DNA from: Pseudomonadota bacterium
Lineage (GTDB): Bacteria; Myxococcota; UBA9042; PHBI01
Assembly (NCBI GenBank): GCA_005788935.1
Contig: SYAK01000138.1
Span: 1-9,325, forward strand
Direction: 5' to 3'
DNA length: 9,325 nt
The position numbers were made by a program, and so were the translations under genes. How positions within the stretch are numbered: position 1 is the stretch's first letter; each line of letters starts with the position of its first letter. Below, in pieces: positions 2,839-9,325 of the stretch. The notes under the pieces were generated by a model. It ran no database searches and had not been told where the DNA came from. It worked only from the letters and a program-made list of their open reading frames with translations.

Positions 2839-4404
2839 ATGGATGCCAGCCAGTCTTCACCCGGCCACGCCACGCTCCTTCGGGACCTCCGCGCCGGTTT
2901 TCTCGTCTTCCTGATCGCGTTGCCGCTTTGCCTCGGTATCGCGCTCGCGAGCAACTTCCCGCCCGTCGCAGGCATCATGACGGCCGTCGTCGGCGGCCTT
3001 GTGGCCACCTGGGCTGGCAGCGCCGACCTGACCATCAAGGGGCCGGCTGCAGGCCTCATCGTCATTGCGCTCGGCAGCTTCAACGAGCTCGGTTACGAGA
3101 AGACGCTTGCCGTCGGGGTCATGGCCGCCTCGGTCCAGATCGTGTTCGCGCTGGTCCGGGCGGGACGCTTCGGCGAGATCTTCCCGGCGTCGGTCGTACA
3201 CGGCATGCTCGCGGCGATCGGCGTGATCATCATGTCCAAGCAGCTGCACACGATGGTGGGTGTCAAGCCAGAGGGGCACGAGCCGCTCGAGCTGCTCGCC
3301 GAGATTCCACGTAGCCTCGCTGGGCTGAACCCCGAGATCGCGCTCATCGGCGGCCTGTCGCTGCTCATCCTGCTCGTGATGCCCCGCCTGCCGTGGCCGG
3401 CGCTCAGGCGGGTACCAGGACCGCTTGCCGTGCTCGCGGCCGCGGTCCCCCTGGCGGGCTGGTTCGATCTTGCCCACCAGCACCCGTATGCCTTTCTCGA
3501 CGAGGTCCATGAGGTCGGGCCGTACCTGCTCGTCCAGGTCTCGGGCGACATCCTGGCCGCCGTGACGTGGCCCGACTTCTCGGAGGTCTTTTCCACCGCG
3601 TCGCTGAAGTACGTTCTGCTGTTTTCACTCATCGGAAGCATCGAGTCGCTGCTGTCGGCCAAGGCGGTCGACATCCTCGACCCCCTGAAGCGGAAGTCGG
3701 ACCTCAACAAGGATCTGCTCGCGGTCGGGATCGGCAACCTCGTCGCGTCCTTTATCGGCGGGCTGCCGATGATTTCTGAGATCGTGCGGTCCAAGGCCAA
3801 CATCGACAATGGGGCCGTCACCCGGAAGTCCAACTTCTTCCACGCGGTCTTTCTGCTCGGGTTCGTCGCGCTCCTGCCAGGCGTGTTGTCGAGCATCCCG
3901 CTTGCCGCGCTGGCCGCGATGCTGGTCTTCACGGGCCTGCGCCTCGCCTCGCCAGCAGAGTTCCGTCACACGTGGCATGTCGGTCGGGAGCAGTTCCTTG
4001 TGTTCGTCGTGACGCTCGTCACGACGCTCGCGACCGACCTGCTGGTGGGCGTGATCGTCGGGATCGCGTTGGAGTTCTCGCTGCAGGTCGTTTGGACGCT
4101 GCGCCCGCGTCTGCGCGTCGCGACTGAGGGCGACGTGTTCTGCATCGCGGTGCGCTCGCCAACCCTCTTTTCGAACTATCTGACCCTTCACCAGCGCATC
4201 CACGACGCGCGCGCCGCGGGGACACGCGCCATCCGGATCGACTTTTCGGAGTCGCCCGTCGTGGACCACACCACGATGGAGCGACTGACCGACATGCAGG
4301 CGGAGATGCTGGCGGTCGGCCTGTCGCTGGAGCTCGTCGGTCTCGACCGGCTCGTCCCGGTCTCCCATCACCCCCTCGCCGCGCGCCGGAGCCTCGCGCC
4401 GTGA
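2839..4404 (+). CDS. SulP/SLC26-family anion transporter with C-terminal STAS domain (candidate bicarbonate carrier)
   Basis: This 521-residue inner-membrane carrier has the full SulP layout: a 14-helix-type membrane region up to about residue 425, then a STAS domain at about 430-510. Visible SulP signatures are LPLCLGIALASNFPP in the first helix, IKGPAAGLIVIALG around helix 3, GSIESLLSAKAVDILD with acidic E269 in a core helix, and GLPMISEIVRSKANIDNG before helix 10. The STAS part has the expected beta-alpha pattern ending in VDHTTMERLTDM. SulP proteins carry sulfate, bicarbonate, dicarboxylates or other anions; cyanobacterial BicA is a sodium-bicarbonate example. The substrate cannot be read from sequence here. 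Its TGA overlaps the GTG of dabA (GTGA), so it is translationally coupled to an inorganic-carbon gene, which makes bicarbonate the best guess. No carbonic anhydrase domain is fused to it. The start is set by AGGAGG at 2828. Family assignment is very sure; substrate is inferred from context. Confidence 0.93.
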   Translation: MDASQSSPGHATLLRDLRAGFLVFLIALPLCLGIALASNFPPVAGIMTAVVGGLVATWAGSADLTIKGPAAGLIVIALGSFNELGYEKTLAVGVMAASVQIVFALVRAGRFGEIFPASVVHGMLAAIGVIIMSKQLHTMVGVKPEGHEPLELLAEIPRSLAGLNPEIALIGGLSLLILLVMPRLPWPALRRVPGPLAVLAAAVPLAGWFDLAHQHPYAFLDEVHEVGPYLLVQVSGDILAAVTWPDFSEVFSTASLKYVLLFSLIGSIESLLSAKAVDILDPLKRKSDLNKDLLAVGIGNLVASFIGGLPMISEIVRSKANIDNGAVTRKSNFFHAVFLLGFVALLPGVLSSIPLAALAAMLVFTGLRLASPAEFRHTWHVGREQFLVFVVTLVTTLATDLLVGVIVGIALEFSLQVVWTLRPRLRVATEGDVFCIAVRSPTLFSNYLTLHQRIHDARAAGTRAIRIDFSESPVVDHTTMERLTDMQAEMLAVGLSLELVGLDRLVPVSHHPLAARRSLAP

Positions 4405-7400
4405 CGGCCCCCGTCGCCCTGGCAGCACGGCGCAGCGCAGGGGACCGGCCAGGTGAGGCCCTGACGCACGCGCTCGCCCACGCCGCTCGCCTGCTGCCCG
4501 CTCAGGGGCCGATGGGGGTGTTCGTCCACCACAACACGCTGCATGCGTACGAGGACCGTCCCTTCGATGAGGCGGTCGTGGCGGCCGCGAGGGACCTCGG
4601 GGCCCGGCCTTACCTGGCAGAGTCGGAGTTCCGCGCACTTCATGCCGCAGGACGCATCCTGCCGCAGGACATCCGGGCCGCGGTCGCCGGACTGCCGGCC
4701 GACGCGCTCGGTCCCGCCTGGCCTGTCGGCGGGGGGCGCGACGTGCCGGCCGCAGAGGCCCTCGCCAACTGGGTCGTCGCCGCCCCGGCGCTCGAGGAGG
4801 AGGTCGGTCTCGTCTGGATGCTGCGGCACGGGGACGCCTTCTCACGGTTTCCGGACTGGGTGGGCGGGGACGCGCGCGCCAGGCACATCGAGGCCACGCG
4901 GACGGCCCTCGCGGGCATGCGCGGGGAAGCGCTCATCGAGGCGCTCGCCACGGGTGGCGGTGACCGGGCAGGCTCGCGGCGGGAACGCTTCTTCCGACAG
5001 TTCGGCGTGGTCCTCCGCGGGGAGGATTCGGCCCTCGAGCTGCCCGAGGTCGCGCGCGCCCTGTGGCACCTCTGGCACGGTTGCCGGGGCGTGGTAGCCC
5101 AAAGCGGAGACGGCCGACGCAGCGACCTCGGAGGCGCCCGCAGCGCCATCCATGTCCGTCCGCGCGGTCTTTTGCCCGAGGTGAGGCGGGCCCGGGTGGC
5201 GGCTGGACGGCCTGACCCGTTCGTGCGCGTGACAGGGACGCTGTCCCGGCTGGCCGCGGCCTTCCTCGACGAGGGCGTGAGCCACTGGCCGATGCCACTT
5301 CGCACCGAGGGGTTCTGGCGGGCGGCGCTGCATGCGCTCGCCGATGGTGCCAGCCCAGCCATCGGCGGACTTGCGCCAGCGCGTCTGCGCGAGCTCGCCA
5401 GGACCGCTCCGGCGGAGGCGGTGCTTGCGGTGCTCGGACGCTGGGCGATCGCGCCGCACGACTTCGGCGAGGTCGTTCATCAGTTGCTGCAGCTGCTCCC
5501 GGGGTGGGGCGGCATGTTCTGGCGGCTCGAGACGATGCCGCATGAGCGCCGGGATTCGACCTGCCCCATCACGTTGCTCGACTGGTTCGCGGTGGTGGCT
5601 GTGGTCTGCGACGCCAGCATCGGCGGCGTGGACGGCACGTGGGCCCCGGCCGCAACGGCGCTCGACGACGAGGACGACGTGCTGACCCGGACGGTCGAGA
5701 CGGACGCGGCGCGAGCGGACGTGGTGGCTTTCCGGCTCTTCCGGGCCGCCCTTGCGCTCGGCATCACGCGGGCCGAACTCGAGGCGCTCCCCGAGGCCCG
5801 CCGCGAGGCGCTGCTCGGGCGGCTCGTGGCCTTCAGCGACATCCCGCGTCGACGCATCTGGCATGCCGCCTTCGAGGCGCGCCACGCAGCCGAGGTGCTG
5901 ACCCCGCTCGCCCTCTTTGCGCGCCGCCACGCCGTCCCCGATGGACTGCCTGGCCGCCCGCGTCTCGCGGTCGTGTGCTGCATCGATGACCGCGAGGAGT
6001 CCTTCCGGCGCATCCTCGAGGAGCGCGGGCCCGACATCCGGACCCACGGCCACGCGGGGTTCTTCGGGTTCCCGATGCGTTACAAGGGCCTCGACGATGA
6101 GGCCGCGTACGCGCTGTGCCCCGTCAATATCGAGCCGAACGTGCTCGTCGAAGAGCGCCCGGTCGACGCGCGGGAGGCCAACCTTCGCGCGAGCGGCCGG
6201 CGTCGGGCCGCTCACCTGCTGCACGAGGTCCACGAAGCGTCACGGGCGCCAGGACGCGGGGCGCTCGTCTCGCTCGCCCTCGCGCCACTGCAGGCCCTGC
6301 TGCTGACCGCCCGCATCCTCGCCCCGCGCAAGGCCCGCGCGGCCGAACGATGGTTCGCGCGGCGCCTCGTGCCACAGCCCGCCACCGAGCTGACCCTCGA
6401 CCGCCGCGACGAGTCGGTGCCGCCCGCGCCGACCGGGACAGCGCTTGCCCTCGGCTATCCCCTCGACGAGCAGGTGACGCGGGCCGCGACCTTCCTCGAG
6501 AATCTGGGGATGGTGAAGGACTTCCCGCGGCTCGTCATCATCCTCGGCCACGGCTCGTCGTCCTTCAACAACCCGCATCGGTCGGCGTATGACTGCGGGG
6601 CCTGCGGCGGGCGCCACGGGTCGGCCAACGCGCGTCTCGCGGCCCAGGTCCTCAACCGCCCCGAAGTCCGGGCTCGGCTGCGTGCGCGAGGACTCGAGCT
6701 GCCAGATGACACCTGGTTCATCGGCGGTTTCCATCACACCGGCGACGACGGCATCCTGCTGCACGACCTCGGGCGCGTCCCGCCGCATCTCGCGGACGAT
6801 CTCCGCCGCGCCCGCGAGGACCTCGAGGCCGCCCGACGTGACAACGCCTTCGAGCGCTGCCGCCGCTTCGAGGCCGCCCATGCCGTCGCGAGCCCCGAGG
6901 CCGCCCTGCGACACGTCGAAGACCGCTGCCAGCACCTGAGTGAGCCGCGCCCCGAGCTCGGGCACGCGACGAATGCGGTCGCCATCGTCGGGCGGCGATC
7001 GCTGACGCGTGGGCTGTTCCTCGACCGGCGCTCGTTCCTCATCTGCTACGACGCCACCATCGACCCGCAGACCGCCATCCTCGAGCGCCTCCTCGCGGCG
7101 GTCGGCCCCGTCGGGGCCGGAATCAACCTCGAGTACTGGTTTTCGCGGGTCGACAACGAGCGCTATGGCGCTGGCACCAAGCTGCCGCACAACGTGACGG
7201 GGCTCTTCGGCGTGATGAGCGGCGCCGAGGGCGACCTGCGGACTGGACTCCCGTGGCAGATGGTCGAGATCCATGACCCGGTGCGTCTGCTGCTCATCAT
7301 CGAGGCGACCCCCGAGGCCGTCCTGACCGTGGCGTCCCGGCAACCGGTCGTCGCCCAGCTCGTCGTCAACAGGTGGGTGCGCGTCGCGACCGTCGACCCG

Positions 7401-7598
7401 GAGACGCGCGTGATGCACGTCTTCGAGGGCGGGCAGTTCGTCCCGTGGTCACCCGCCATCGACGCGGCCCTCGGCGAGGTCCCGGACAGCCGCTCCCACT
7501 GGCGCCACCACCTGCACAACCTGCCGAGCGTCGCGGTGCGGCGCATCACGGACCAAACCGCACGACCGGCCCACGGCAAGCCCGGGAGCGCCTCATGA
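4401..7598 (+). CDS. dabA: DabA-type inorganic carbon uptake protein (DUF2309/UPF0753), long form
   Basis: DabA is a zinc protein distantly related to beta-carbonic anhydrases. With DabB it is proposed to hydrate CO2 to bicarbonate at the inner face of the membrane, powered by cation flow. The N-terminal block at about 37-58 (GPMGVFVHHNTLHAYEDRPF) matches the family's start. The zinc-site motifs are clear: CCIDDREE gives C527 and D529, GHGSSSFNNPHRSAYDCGACGG gives H717 and C732. These align with C351, D353, H524 and C539 reported for Halothiobacillus DabA2, including the 2- and 15-residue spacings. The C-terminal HNVTGLFGV and DLRTGLPWQ blocks (about 930-955) are also family features. At 1065 residues it is much longer than the roughly 830-residue DabA2, with most of the excess before C527. 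The GTG start at 4401 overlaps the SulP stop by four bases, with GGAG at 4388-4391. The stop overlaps the dabB ATG. It is called MpsB in staphylococci. Confidence 0.94.
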   Translation: MTAPVALAARRSAGDRPGEALTHALAHAARLLPAQGPMGVFVHHNTLHAYEDRPFDEAVVAAARDLGARPYLAESEFRALHAAGRILPQDIRAAVAGLPADALGPAWPVGGGRDVPAAEALANWVVAAPALEEEVGLVWMLRHGDAFSRFPDWVGGDARARHIEATRTALAGMRGEALIEALATGGGDRAGSRRERFFRQFGVVLRGEDSALELPEVARALWHLWHGCRGVVAQSGDGRRSDLGGARSAIHVRPRGLLPEVRRARVAAGRPDPFVRVTGTLSRLAAAFLDEGVSHWPMPLRTEGFWRAALHALADGASPAIGGLAPARLRELARTAPAEAVLAVLGRWAIAPHDFGEVVHQLLQLLPGWGGMFWRLETMPHERRDSTCPITLLDWFAVVAVVCDASIGGVDGTWAPAATALDDEDDVLTRTVETDAARADVVAFRLFRAALALGITRAELEALPEARREALLGRLVAFSDIPRRRIWHAAFEARHAAEVLTPLALFARRHAVPDGLPGRPRLAVVCCIDDREESFRRILEERGPDIRTHGHAGFFGFPMRYKGLDDEAAYALCPVNIEPNVLVEERPVDAREANLRASGRRRAAHLLHEVHEASRAPGRGALVSLALAPLQALLLTARILAPRKARAAERWFARRLVPQPATELTLDRRDESVPPAPTGTALALGYPLDEQVTRAATFLENLGMVKDFPRLVIILGHGSSSFNNPHRSAYDCGACGGRHGSANARLAAQVLNRPEVRARLRARGLELPDDTWFIGGFHHTGDDGILLHDLGRVPPHLADDLRRAREDLEAARRDNAFERCRRFEAAHAVASPEAALRHVEDRCQHLSEPRPELGHATNAVAIVGRRSLTRGLFLDRRSFLICYDATIDPQTAILERLLAAVGPVGAGINLEYWFSRVDNERYGAGTKLPHNVTGLFGVMSGAEGDLRTGLPWQMVEIHDPVRLLLIIEATPEAVLTVASRQPVVAQLVVNRWVRVATVDPETRVMHVFEGGQFVPWSPAIDAALGEVPDSRSHWRHHLHNLPSVAVRRITDQTARPAHGKPGSAS

Positions 7599-8968
7599 CC
7601 GCCGCCCTCCCCGTTGCACCAGCCGCCCCCCCCGAGCCTTTCGGATGGCTGCTGCTGGCGCTGCCCACCGCGCTCCTGCTGGGCTTCATTGTTCTAAACA
7701 TTCAATCGATTGCGTTCAAGACTGCGTCCGAGCGTTCCATCGCACGCCAGACGCAGCTCGCCTTCGTCGCGGTCTTCGCGGGCGCTGTCGCCCTCCTCGG
7801 GCACGTCGTCCTGAGCGGCCGGACCGCGGTCGACCTCTCGGCGTGGTACGCGCCAGGTTACGGACTGCTGGCCCCGGCCCTCGAGGTGGATCTCACGCGC
7901 GCCATCCTGCTGGTCGTTTTCTCCGGCATCATCGGTCTGACCGCTCGTTTTTCAACGACTTACATGCATCGCGAACCCGGTTACGACCGTTTCTTTCTCC
8001 TGCTGTGGCTCTTCACGGCCGGCGTCACGATGGTCATCCTCGCCTCGCGCATCGACCTCTTCTTCATCGGCTGGGAGTTCGTCGGGCTGTCGTCGGCGCT
8101 GCTCATCGGCTTCTTCCGCAACAAGGGGCAGCCCGTCCGCGCCGGTCTCCGCGCCTGGACGACCTACCGCGGCTGCGACGTGGCCCTGCTGCTCGGGTTC
8201 GTCCTGCTGCATCACGCCGCCCACAGCTTCGACTGGCACGCGGTGCTGACCGCTGGCACCCGCCTCGAGCCAGGCGAGCTGCGCTTCGTCGGCGCGCTTC
8301 TGATCATCGGCGCGATGGGCAAGTCCGCTCAGGCCCCGCTTTCGGGCTGGCTGCCGCGGGCGATGGAGGGACCAACCTCGTCGAGCGCGCTGTTCTACGG
8401 CGGCGTCTCGGTCCACCTCGGGGCCTTCCTGCTGCTCGCCGTGATGCCGATCCTCGAGGCTGACCTGGGGTTACGCGTCGCGGTCGGCGTCATTGGCGGC
8501 GTCACGGCCATCCTCGCGGGGCTGACGAGCCGCGTTCGGCCGGATGTGAAGACGGCCATCGGCTGGTCGGTCGCGTCCCAGCTGGGCGTCATCTGGGTGG
8601 AGATAGCCCTTGGCCTCGAGACGCTCGCGCTCGTTCATATCGCGGCCCACGCCGTCTACCGCACGAGCGAGCTCCTGACATCGCCGCAGGCCCTTCACGA
8701 CCGCTTCGCGCGGGAGTCGGGGGCGGGCGGACAGCTCGGATTCAGGCATCCGATACCGTTTTCGCCCAAAGGCACGATGGCGTCGTGGGTCCATGCGCGG
8801 GCTCTCGGCGCGTTCGGCATGGAGGGGCTGGTGGCCCGCCTCTTCGTCCGCCCGTTCGTCGCCCTCGGGCGCGTCCTCGATCGCCTTGACCGCGGCCTGA
8901 GCGGCGATACCGCGCCCGAGCAGCCATCCGAGGGCAGTCAGCCAGTCGAGCATGCGGAGGTGGGCTGA
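7595..8968 (+). CDS. dabB: DabB-like proton/cation-conducting membrane subunit (NuoL/MrpA family), short and divergent
   Basis: This 457-residue polytopic protein belongs to the NuoL/MrpA antiporter-type family and is the expected membrane partner of DabA. Family landmarks are YMHREPGYDRFFLLLWLF before GWEFVGLSSALLIGF (E161, equivalent to NuoL E144), D195 in RGCDVALLLG (NuoL D178), and GAMGKSAQAPLSGWLPRAMEGPT (K243, NuoL K229). H348 and H352 match NuoL H334 and H338. Two channel positions differ: NuoL H254 is Tyr here (Y268), and NuoL K342 is Arg (R356). It is shorter than NuoL (about 610) and seems to lack the last helices, although a NuoL-like tail (FVRPFVALGRVLDRLDRG) is present before an acidic Pro/Glu-rich end. 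The ATG overlaps the dabA stop (ATGA) with GGGAG at 7584-7588. The frame is open upstream into dabA, but this start is clearly favoured. Next to dabA it is DabB/MpsA rather than complex I; the exact ortholog class is less certain. Confidence 0.88.
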   Translation: MTAALPVAPAAPPEPFGWLLLALPTALLLGFIVLNIQSIAFKTASERSIARQTQLAFVAVFAGAVALLGHVVLSGRTAVDLSAWYAPGYGLLAPALEVDLTRAILLVVFSGIIGLTARFSTTYMHREPGYDRFFLLLWLFTAGVTMVILASRIDLFFIGWEFVGLSSALLIGFFRNKGQPVRAGLRAWTTYRGCDVALLLGFVLLHHAAHSFDWHAVLTAGTRLEPGELRFVGALLIIGAMGKSAQAPLSGWLPRAMEGPTSSSALFYGGVSVHLGAFLLLAVMPILEADLGLRVAVGVIGGVTAILAGLTSRVRPDVKTAIGWSVASQLGVIWVEIALGLETLALVHIAAHAVYRTSELLTSPQALHDRFARESGAGGQLGFRHPIPFSPKGTMASWVHARALGAFGMEGLVARLFVRPFVALGRVLDRLDRGLSGDTAPEQPSEGSQPVEHAEVG

Positions 8969-9325
8969 TGGGGACCTTCGAGACCTTCGGCGCGCCGGTG
9001 CTGTCCGTGCCGCTGATGGCGGGGCTGCTGGTCGTGCCCTTCGTGGCCCGCGCCAGAACAGCGGCGGCAGCGGGGCGGCTCGCCTTGACGACCGCGGCGC
9101 TCCTGCTCACGTGGACAGCGGGGCTGGTCGTGCACTTCGTGACCTCGGGCGACGTGGGGCGCCGTATGGACCCGCTGCACACGGGCGCCACGCCGCTGCT
9201 CGGGGTCGACGGCATGGGGGCGGCCCTCATCCTGCTGACCACTGTCGTCGCGCTCGCCTGGCTCATCGTGCGGCGGCGCTCGAGCCCGCTCCCGCGCGAG
9301 CTCGCGGCGCTCGTCGCGATGGAGG
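8968..9325 (+). CDS. Second antiporter-type membrane subunit, NuoM-like, 3'-truncated by the window edge
   Basis: The ATG at 8968 shares its A with the TGA of the preceding gene (TGATG), and GGAGG at 8956-8960 lies seven bases upstream, so the start is well supported and coupled. The 119 visible codons encode a hydrophobic first helix (about 9-27, VLSVPLMAGLLVVPFVA), a second at about 39-58, a short exported loop, then LLGVDGMGAALILLTTVVALAWLIV. The GVDG(M/I)...LILLTT pattern is typical of NuoM/NdhD-type subunits at this position. The protein is therefore probably a proton-conducting transporter subunit related to NuoM. The key Glu and Lys helices lie outside the window, so channel competence cannot be judged. 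Its place right after dabB suggests that the complex contains two different antiporter-like subunits. Confidence 0.82.
   Translation, partial: MGTFETFGAPVLSVPLMAGLLVVPFVARARTAAAAGRLALTTAALLLTWTAGLVVHFVTSGDVGRRMDPLHTGATPLLGVDGMGAALILLTTVVALAWLIVRRRSSPLPRELAALVAME

Follow-up and report, generated by a model that had tools for sequence, protein, structure and literature searches.

What is the function of an operon that joins the two genes of a DAB inorganic carbon system to an anion carrier and to a further complex-I-like membrane subunit? The question is raised by a 9,325-nucleotide stretch of DNA (the window; positions 1–9,325 of contig SYAK01000138.1, assembly GCA_005788935.1), which comes from a Pseudomonadota bacterium placed by GTDB in the Myxococcota and encodes SulP, DabA, DabB and the beginning of a NuoM-like protein. 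Taken as a whole, the operon is probably a His-type branch of the DAB CO2-uptake system, named here after an active-site histidine, with an anion carrier added. In the best reading, the operon would encode a CO2 hydratase that is coupled to energy through a complex-I-like membrane part and that probably works together with a bicarbonate carrier.

The four genes lie on the forward strand and overlap one another. SulP (2839–4404) starts with ATG behind a GGAGG sequence and encodes 521 residues. DabA (4401–7598; GTG start, 1065 residues) overlaps SulP by four bases at GTGA, and DabB (7595–8968; ATG start, 457 residues) overlaps DabA by four bases at ATGA. The NuoM-like gene (8968–9325; ATG start) overlaps DabB by one base within TGATG and runs past the end of the window, leaving its N-terminal 119 residues. 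This order and the overlaps of 4, 4 and 1 bases bear out the layout given in a preliminary description of the window. SulP, DabA and DabB match the Pfam families PF00916 (185.9 bits), PF10070 (719.8 bits) and PF00361 (119.3 bits), respectively, all above the curated cut-offs. As in DAB/DAC systems, DabB is NuoL-like and its gene adjoins dabA, and the PF10070 protein has a Cys2His zinc site and an Asp-Arg dyad. The window DabA is 100% identical to one database protein, located on an ENA contig of 10,989 bases. No relative of DabA was found in the viral contigs searched.

Is the catalytic site of DabA complete? The zinc ligands are C527, H717, and C732, and D529 and R531 form the dyad. In an alignment, the ligands and the dyad are kept in 72 of 72 database proteins. 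Mutations of the zinc ligands and of the Asp-Arg dyad are reported to impair DAB2, the characterized system of Halothiobacillus neapolitanus (PMC13144422). The window DabA is likely to be a zinc enzyme of the beta-carbonic-anhydrase (beta-CA) kind that hydrates CO2 on the cytoplasmic side. One residue of the site departs from DAB2. The window sequence RPELGHATNA aligns without gaps with RPEWGLAGNA of DAB2, so the counterpart of DAB2 Leu658 is His855 (codon 6963–6965, forward strand), and the leucine of canonical DAB2-like proteins is absent. Leu658 replaces a Gln or His of beta-CAs and is reported to be strictly conserved among 150 homologs; DAB2 is described as lacking spontaneous carbonic anhydrase activity, and none was gained in vitro when Gln was restored at this position (PMC13144422).

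The histidine follows gene order. Loci were assigned to three classes by the order of genes near DabA. Class I, the canonical class, has the order DabB–DabA with a short DabA. Class II, which includes the window, has the order DabA–DabB–NuoM-like, with SulP upstream or after the NuoM-like gene. Class III, obtained in a search of Pseudomonadota, has the order NuoM–DabA–DabB–NuoM–NuoM in 21 of the 21 loci so sorted; the loci with three NuoM-like genes are L197, L199–L202, L204–L209 and L244–L253. At the position of Leu658, all 33 canonical rows of the alignment have Leu; His occupies it in 94 of the 98 rows of class II and in all 28 of class III. The remaining class II rows are two gaps (L091 and L138) and two leucines (L112 and L139); the latter belong to contig-truncated Leu-type loci that the gene-order rule misfiles. 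The 72 database proteins divide into 56 with His, 15 with Leu and one gap. Alignment counts are given in place of those from a regular expression for the motif, which left 40 of 168 rows unread, and open reading frames (ORFs) shorter than 750 or longer than 1400 residues were dropped along with repeats. In a tree of 82 of the 233 rows, built by a quick search with no bootstrap, a single branch (support 100) has all His rows to one side of it, and one change suffices.

The differences from DAB2 extend to the residues that couple DabA to the membrane. In DAB2, DabA inserts a finger beside DabB, and Glu444 in this finger is essential in vivo (PMC13144422). In its place, the window DabA has a predicted helical hairpin (residues 590–640; 6168–6320, forward strand), modeled by AlphaFold2 (AF2) as helices 590–614 and 617–640. 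Leu625 is aligned with Glu444, and the hairpin core contains no acid. All 33 canonical rows have Glu or Asp at the aligned position; of the 98 class II rows one has Glu, and three of the 28 class III rows have an acid there.

DabB is a short NuoL-like protein with about 11 predicted membrane helices and a C-terminal helix (residues 409–436) whose placement is uncertain. Its AF2 model has a mean predicted local distance difference test (pLDDT) score of 82.7 and, counted from the listed helices, 11 membrane helices ahead of helix 409–436. The model matches NuoL over about 360 residues with a TM-score of up to 0.72. Residues E161 (the equivalent of NuoL E144), R192, D195, K243, K319, H348, and H352 are kept. 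Y268 and R356 stand where DAB2 has H260 and K347. The corresponding positions of NuoL, H254 and K342, are Tyr and Arg in the window and in nearly all of its branch; their equivalents are conserved in DAB2, where mutation impairs the system (PMC13144422). DabB of DAB2 has Ile151 in place of NuoL E144, and a Glu put there halved growth (PMC13144422). Glu is found at this position in 143 of 143 loci of DabA–DabB order versus 0 of 25 of DabB–DabA order, with loci fetched twice counted twice. Canonical DAB2-like DabBs have 15 helices and have lost this glutamate, whereas the window DabB has about 11 and keeps it as E161.

The DabB tail is correspondingly different. Past the equivalent of NuoL H338, class II DabBs end after about 100 residues. 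The median tail is 90–110 residues in four groups of His-type or unread loci versus 181–202 residues in 23 canonical loci. Hydrophobic tail segments are absent from 21 of 24 sampled class II DabBs and number one in the other 3; sampled canonical DabBs have three to five such segments, which are mostly missing from class II. The samples (12 of 59, 24 of 103, and 12 of 45 sequences) were grouped by profile score, which leaves the truncated or odd loci L052, L040, L136, L192, and L211 in the wrong group. Judged from the aligned sequences, DabA and DabB differ from DAB2 at Glu444, His260, and Lys347; this is the larger difference, and the preliminary description missed it.

These residues bear on the direction of the reaction. 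SulP could import bicarbonate and DabA could dehydrate it, driving ion export or pH control, with the histidine making the enzyme reversible. His855 restores a residue like that of beta-CAs, the coupling glutamate of DAB2 is absent, and DabB keeps the interface glutamate of complex I, all as such a reverse reaction would have it. A survey of 2017 also proposed an exergonic reaction driving outward ion translocation (PMC5700660). However, both DAB2 (PMC13144422) and the MpsAB system (PMC6689103) are reported to provide cells with inorganic carbon, DAB2 is described as preventing the reverse reaction, and dehydration of bicarbonate yields little energy. Running in reverse is a distinctly unlikely function for the operon.

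What does the NuoM-like subunit contribute? The 119-residue fragment in the window has no Pfam match, and its match to the NCBIfam NuoM model is weak (20.2 bits versus a cut-off of 550). A phmmer search with the fragment against the ORFs of the loci gave no match. Its family was assigned with a profile built from the gene next after DabB in related loci, which it matches at 24.6 bits (E = 5e-10). Partner subunits were sampled as 25 of 70, 25 of 36, 23 of 23, and 23 of 23 sequences. In all 25 sampled class II partners, NuoM E144 and K265 are absent, K234 is replaced by Arg, and an acid is found at, or one residue away from, the position of NuoM E407. In class III, all four residues are present throughout the sampled rows of two of the three NuoM-like proteins but not of the third. 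A role for the class II partner as a second working pump was rejected given the residue losses in the 25 sampled relatives. The phrase "two antiporter subunits" of the preliminary description overstates the case on both counts, since in these relatives two NuoM channel residues are missing from the partner and a third is replaced by Arg, and DabB is short.

In complex I, transmembrane helix 12 (TM12) of NuoM packs against TM5 of NuoL. Locus L188 encodes DabB (residues 159–524) and the partner (residues 689–1156) in one protein of 1163 residues, and one of the two DabBs of L211 matches only the C-terminal part of the partner (profile positions 335–436 of 486). From the conserved acid and these fusions, we infer that the TM12 acid stands in for Glu444 and that the partner docks on DabB. 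DabB and its partner may form one proton path, the partner giving the half that DabB is without. L211 is unusual in itself: two divergent DabA–DabB pairs lie at 5769–15974, both DabBs carrying an additional membrane part at the C-terminus.

DabB and the NuoM-like subunit could instead form a sodium/proton antiporter that feeds SulP as a sodium-bicarbonate symporter, as proposed for bicA beside Mrp genes. Clusters of bicA with antiporter genes are reported in Aphanothece and Nitrospira (PMC7784846), and a sodium-antiporter mutant was complemented by mpsABC (PMC6689103). The sampled partners, however, are without some NuoM channel residues, DabB is short, and DAB2 is described as fully active without sodium (PMC13144422). 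The antiporter would also leave DabA without a role, and we regard it as highly unlikely.

How widespread is the combination with SulP? A genome scan was queried with an alignment of the window DabA and 24 relatives, and the best 80 of 579 confirmed stretches were used. They come from Planctomycetota, Myxococcota, Acidobacteriota, Verrucomicrobiota, Armatimonadota, and others. Of these best 80 loci, 39 have SulP within 5 kb of DabA (on the same strand in 34) and 66 have a NuoM-like gene on the same strand; in the 43 whose flanks reach 2 kb or more upstream and 5 kb or more downstream, the counts are 29 and 41. The 80 loci were selected for their similarity to the window DabA; a family-based survey of Myxococcota is less biased. 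It detected DabA in 20 of 140 genomes. Seventeen loci have an intact long DabA, with SulP within 5 kb in 10 and a separate NuoM-like gene in 15; in the other two, the partner is fused to DabB (L188) or neither a partner gene nor a fusion is present (L192). By comparison, the 30 canonical short-DabA loci of four phylum searches have dabB upstream of dabA, and neither SulP within 5 kb (0 of 30) nor a NuoM-like gene (0 of 30) was found there; flanks of 7 kb were asked for, and some contigs end sooner (at worst 1.7 kb upstream and 0.9 kb downstream). Fisher's test for SulP in 10 of 17 versus 0 of 30 loci gives 4e-6 with kinship ignored, and with G110 (gene present only as fragments) and L139 (Leu-type, on a 3.4 kb contig) left out.

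The position of SulP varies among the classes. In class II, it is upstream in Myxococcota, Acidobacteriota, and Armatimonadota; several Verrucomicrobiota and one Bryobacter have it upstream but on the opposite strand, and in those Planctomycetota that have it, it mostly comes after the NuoM-like gene. Of the 21 class III loci, nine have SulP within 5 kb, one of them on the other strand. The pairing of SulP with dabA is therefore recurrent across many genomes and not a feature of one. The preliminary description had also seen a composite system beyond the two-gene DAB; its recurrence and extra genes are upheld, and the arrangement itself was already described in 2017 (PMC5700660). A SulP-DabA fusion in L004 (1660–6477) was considered as proof of coupling and set aside: the sequence is one ORF, but the joining stretch looks untranslated, and the locus is on a single contig of a Sorangium metagenome-assembled genome.

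The substrate of SulP is less readily assigned. The PF00916 transporter domain places the protein in the SulP family, and a C-terminal STAS match is weak (20.2 bits, below the cut-off of 22.6). On the BicA model NF050096, it scores 105.4 bits versus a cut-off of 880, and a bicarbonate carrier as worded in the preliminary description is not supported. The best NCBIfam score is that of the C4-dicarboxylate carrier DauA (178.7 bits), which is far below the cut-off of 614. The TM10 motif PMISEIVRS (residues 310–318; 3766–3792, forward strand) marks a subfamily. An exact DNA pattern for PMISE(I/V)VR, which misses variants, was run on 140 Myxococcota genomes: nine of the 20 with DabA contain it, at 10 sites in all, and none of the 120 sampled genomes without DabA does (hypergeometric 4e-9, kinship ignored). 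Nine of the 10 sites adjoin DabA or are one gene away; the tenth (G009) is on another contig. A tree was built quickly from matches of at least 150 bits and 380 residues, with repeats removed. It has several long branches and under-samples paralogs, loci having been obtained for 30 of the matches; in it, further DAB-linked SulPs are spread over one clade of class III and at least two more of class II. The two class II clades so found have as neighbors in the tree SulPs whose genes adjoin a beta-CA or are fused to one.

SulP might serve another anion (sulfate, chloride, or dicarboxylate) or balance the charge of proton flow through DabB, and so be unrelated to carbon. SulP substrates are known to vary (PMC10880623), DauA scores ahead of BicA with both below cut-off, and some DAB loci of the branch are without SulP. 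Against this stand the presence in DAB loci of SulPs from separate subfamilies, which suggests a functional tie, the two DAB-linked branches next to beta-CA-associated SulPs, and the absence of the exact motif from the sampled Myxococcota genomes without DabA. A role apart from carbon is unlikely on balance. SulP most likely moves bicarbonate, by which the cell would gain access to both carbon species.

What would the hosts use the carbon for? In 34 carrier genomes, whose completeness is unstated, a beta-CA match is present in 29 and a RuBisCO match in three, one strong (G017, Nitrosomonas) and two partial. A system that replaces carbonic anhydrase was rejected by the first count, and one that serves RuBisCO was rejected for most hosts by the second. 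With one strong RuBisCO match in 34 genomes, the bicarbonate probably feeds ordinary carboxylases. No beta-CA gene was found in the window. Elsewhere, 11 distinct loci have beta-CA at a distance of up to about 5 kb from DabA (L005, L006, L011, L018, L034, L067, L071 (the same as L180), L074, L142 (the same as L195), L189, and L190), four of which are weak matches of 39–53 bits (L006, L034, L067, and L074). In L018, L071, and L190, beta-CA is on the same strand, upstream of SulP.

These results can be combined into a mechanism. The zinc site of DabA, with His where DAB2 has Leu, would hydrate CO2 to bicarbonate on the cytoplasmic side. DabB would retain the first 11 helices of a NuoL-like proton path and the interface glutamate, and would be without most C-terminal helices. 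The half-channel missing from DabB would come from the NuoM-like subunit, docked on it in the way that NuoM docks on NuoL, with the TM12 acid in the role of Glu444. Proton flow through the two subunits would then drive one-way hydration of CO2, and SulP would move bicarbonate alongside this trapping.

Several observations weigh against the His-type CO2-uptake reading. The AF2 model of DabA has a mean pLDDT of 75.9, and residues 847–856 score below 50, so the placement of His855 is of low confidence. A Foldseek search of this model against the PDB gave no match at E ≤ 0.001, and the DAB2 structure 9RD0 is not among the 50 rows listed. An acid is present in the hairpin core of some His-type rows (2 of 94 in class II, 4 of 28 in class III, and 4 of 56 in the database). 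The window DabB has one hydrophobic tail segment, modeled as helix 409–436, and long-tailed DabBs occur within the branch (L062, L078, and the fusions L188 and L211). Two NuoM channel residues are missing from class II partners. The His/Leu, finger, and DabB traits each split the tree once, and their co-occurrence thus represents one event and not independent support. SulP is absent within 5 kb from 14 of the 43 well-flanked loci among the best 80 and from 7 of 17 Myxococcota loci, and two SulPs of the window clade (L086 and L088) are not beside DabA on their contigs. In the stretch fetched for L192, the partner is present neither as a gene nor as a fusion, and no DabB or NuoM-like gene was detected in the stretches fetched for L198 and L203, two long-DabA loci of the Pseudomonadota search. 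The frequency of beta-CA in the carrier genomes counts in the same direction, as does a DUF2309 gene of Leptospirillum that has been linked instead to oxidant and chromate tolerance (PMC9080137).

The His-type branch would offer a natural comparison for the enzyme lock and the proton path, having His, no finger glutamate and an extra NuoM-like subunit. It points to active uptake of inorganic carbon in bacteria without RuBisCO, with Myxococcota, Planctomycetota, and Acidobacteriota among the hosts, and would tie a SulP subfamily to a role in inorganic carbon. Were the branch a third kind of energy-coupled carbonic anhydrase, a less likely reading taken up below, the related Pseudomonadota form NuoM–DabA–DabB–NuoM–NuoM would couple several proton channels to one hydratase.

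The region upstream of the operon contains four further features. The C-terminal part of a class III aminotransferase (Pfam) occupies positions 1–717. Two ORFs at 883–1641 and 2110–2676 have no Pfam or NCBIfam match and appear hydrophobic by eye. On the reverse strand, an ORF of 109 residues (1658–1987) has CxxC pairs that resemble a zinc ribbon by eye and no Pfam match.

How does the operon compare with known systems? The cyanobacterial NDH-1MS complexes resemble the window system in joining a CO2 hydratase to a membrane part that has NuoL-like and NuoM-like subunits. They differ in being redox driven, in having many more subunits and in using another hydratase subunit, of the CupA type, where the window DabA belongs to PF10070. 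NDH-1MS CO2-uptake complexes are listed in PMC8438413. The can2-sulP cluster of Acidithiobacillus ferrooxidans likewise pairs SulP with a CO2-hydrating zinc enzyme, but the partner there is a soluble beta-CA and not DabA; bicarbonate transport is predicted for that cluster (PMC6458275). MpsAB of Staphylococcus aureus, like the window, has a pair of NuoL-like and DUF2309 proteins and supplies inorganic carbon in a heterotroph. It comprises two functional genes, MpsC being dispensable, and no SulP or NuoM-like gene is named in the sections describing it (PMC6689103).

The same four gene families were noted in the COGNAT survey of 2017 as "clade C" of COG3002 (YbcC). That survey predates a function for DabA and proposed an ion-translocating complex with an unspecified reaction (PMC5700660). 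Like clade C, the window has ybcC upstream of a nuoL homolog, together with a sulfate permease (COG0659) and NuoM (COG1008), as assigned via Pfam, NCBIfam and our own profile. Unlike the present analysis, the survey's account of clade C names no residues of catalysis or coupling and makes no connection with CO2 (PMC5700660). In the open literature searched, no description of His-type loci as a separate DAB branch was found, and we provisionally regard the branch as undescribed.

DAB2 of Halothiobacillus neapolitanus (PDB 9RD0) shares the zinc site, the Asp-Arg dyad and a NuoL-like DabB with the window (PMC13144422). The window DabA differs in having His for Leu658 and no finger Glu444, its DabB is shorter and keeps NuoL E144, and the operon includes an extra NuoM-like subunit and SulP (PMC13144422). 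Relatives of canonical DAB2 have the order DabB–DabA, the reverse of the window. The operon may tentatively be placed between DAB2 and NDH-1MS as a third kind of energy-coupled carbonic anhydrase, a possible if doubtful assignment: a site complete by beta-CA standards that perhaps works without membrane potential, a proton path split between DabB and a NuoM-like subunit that docks as in complex I, and SulP completing a unit for both CO2 and bicarbonate.

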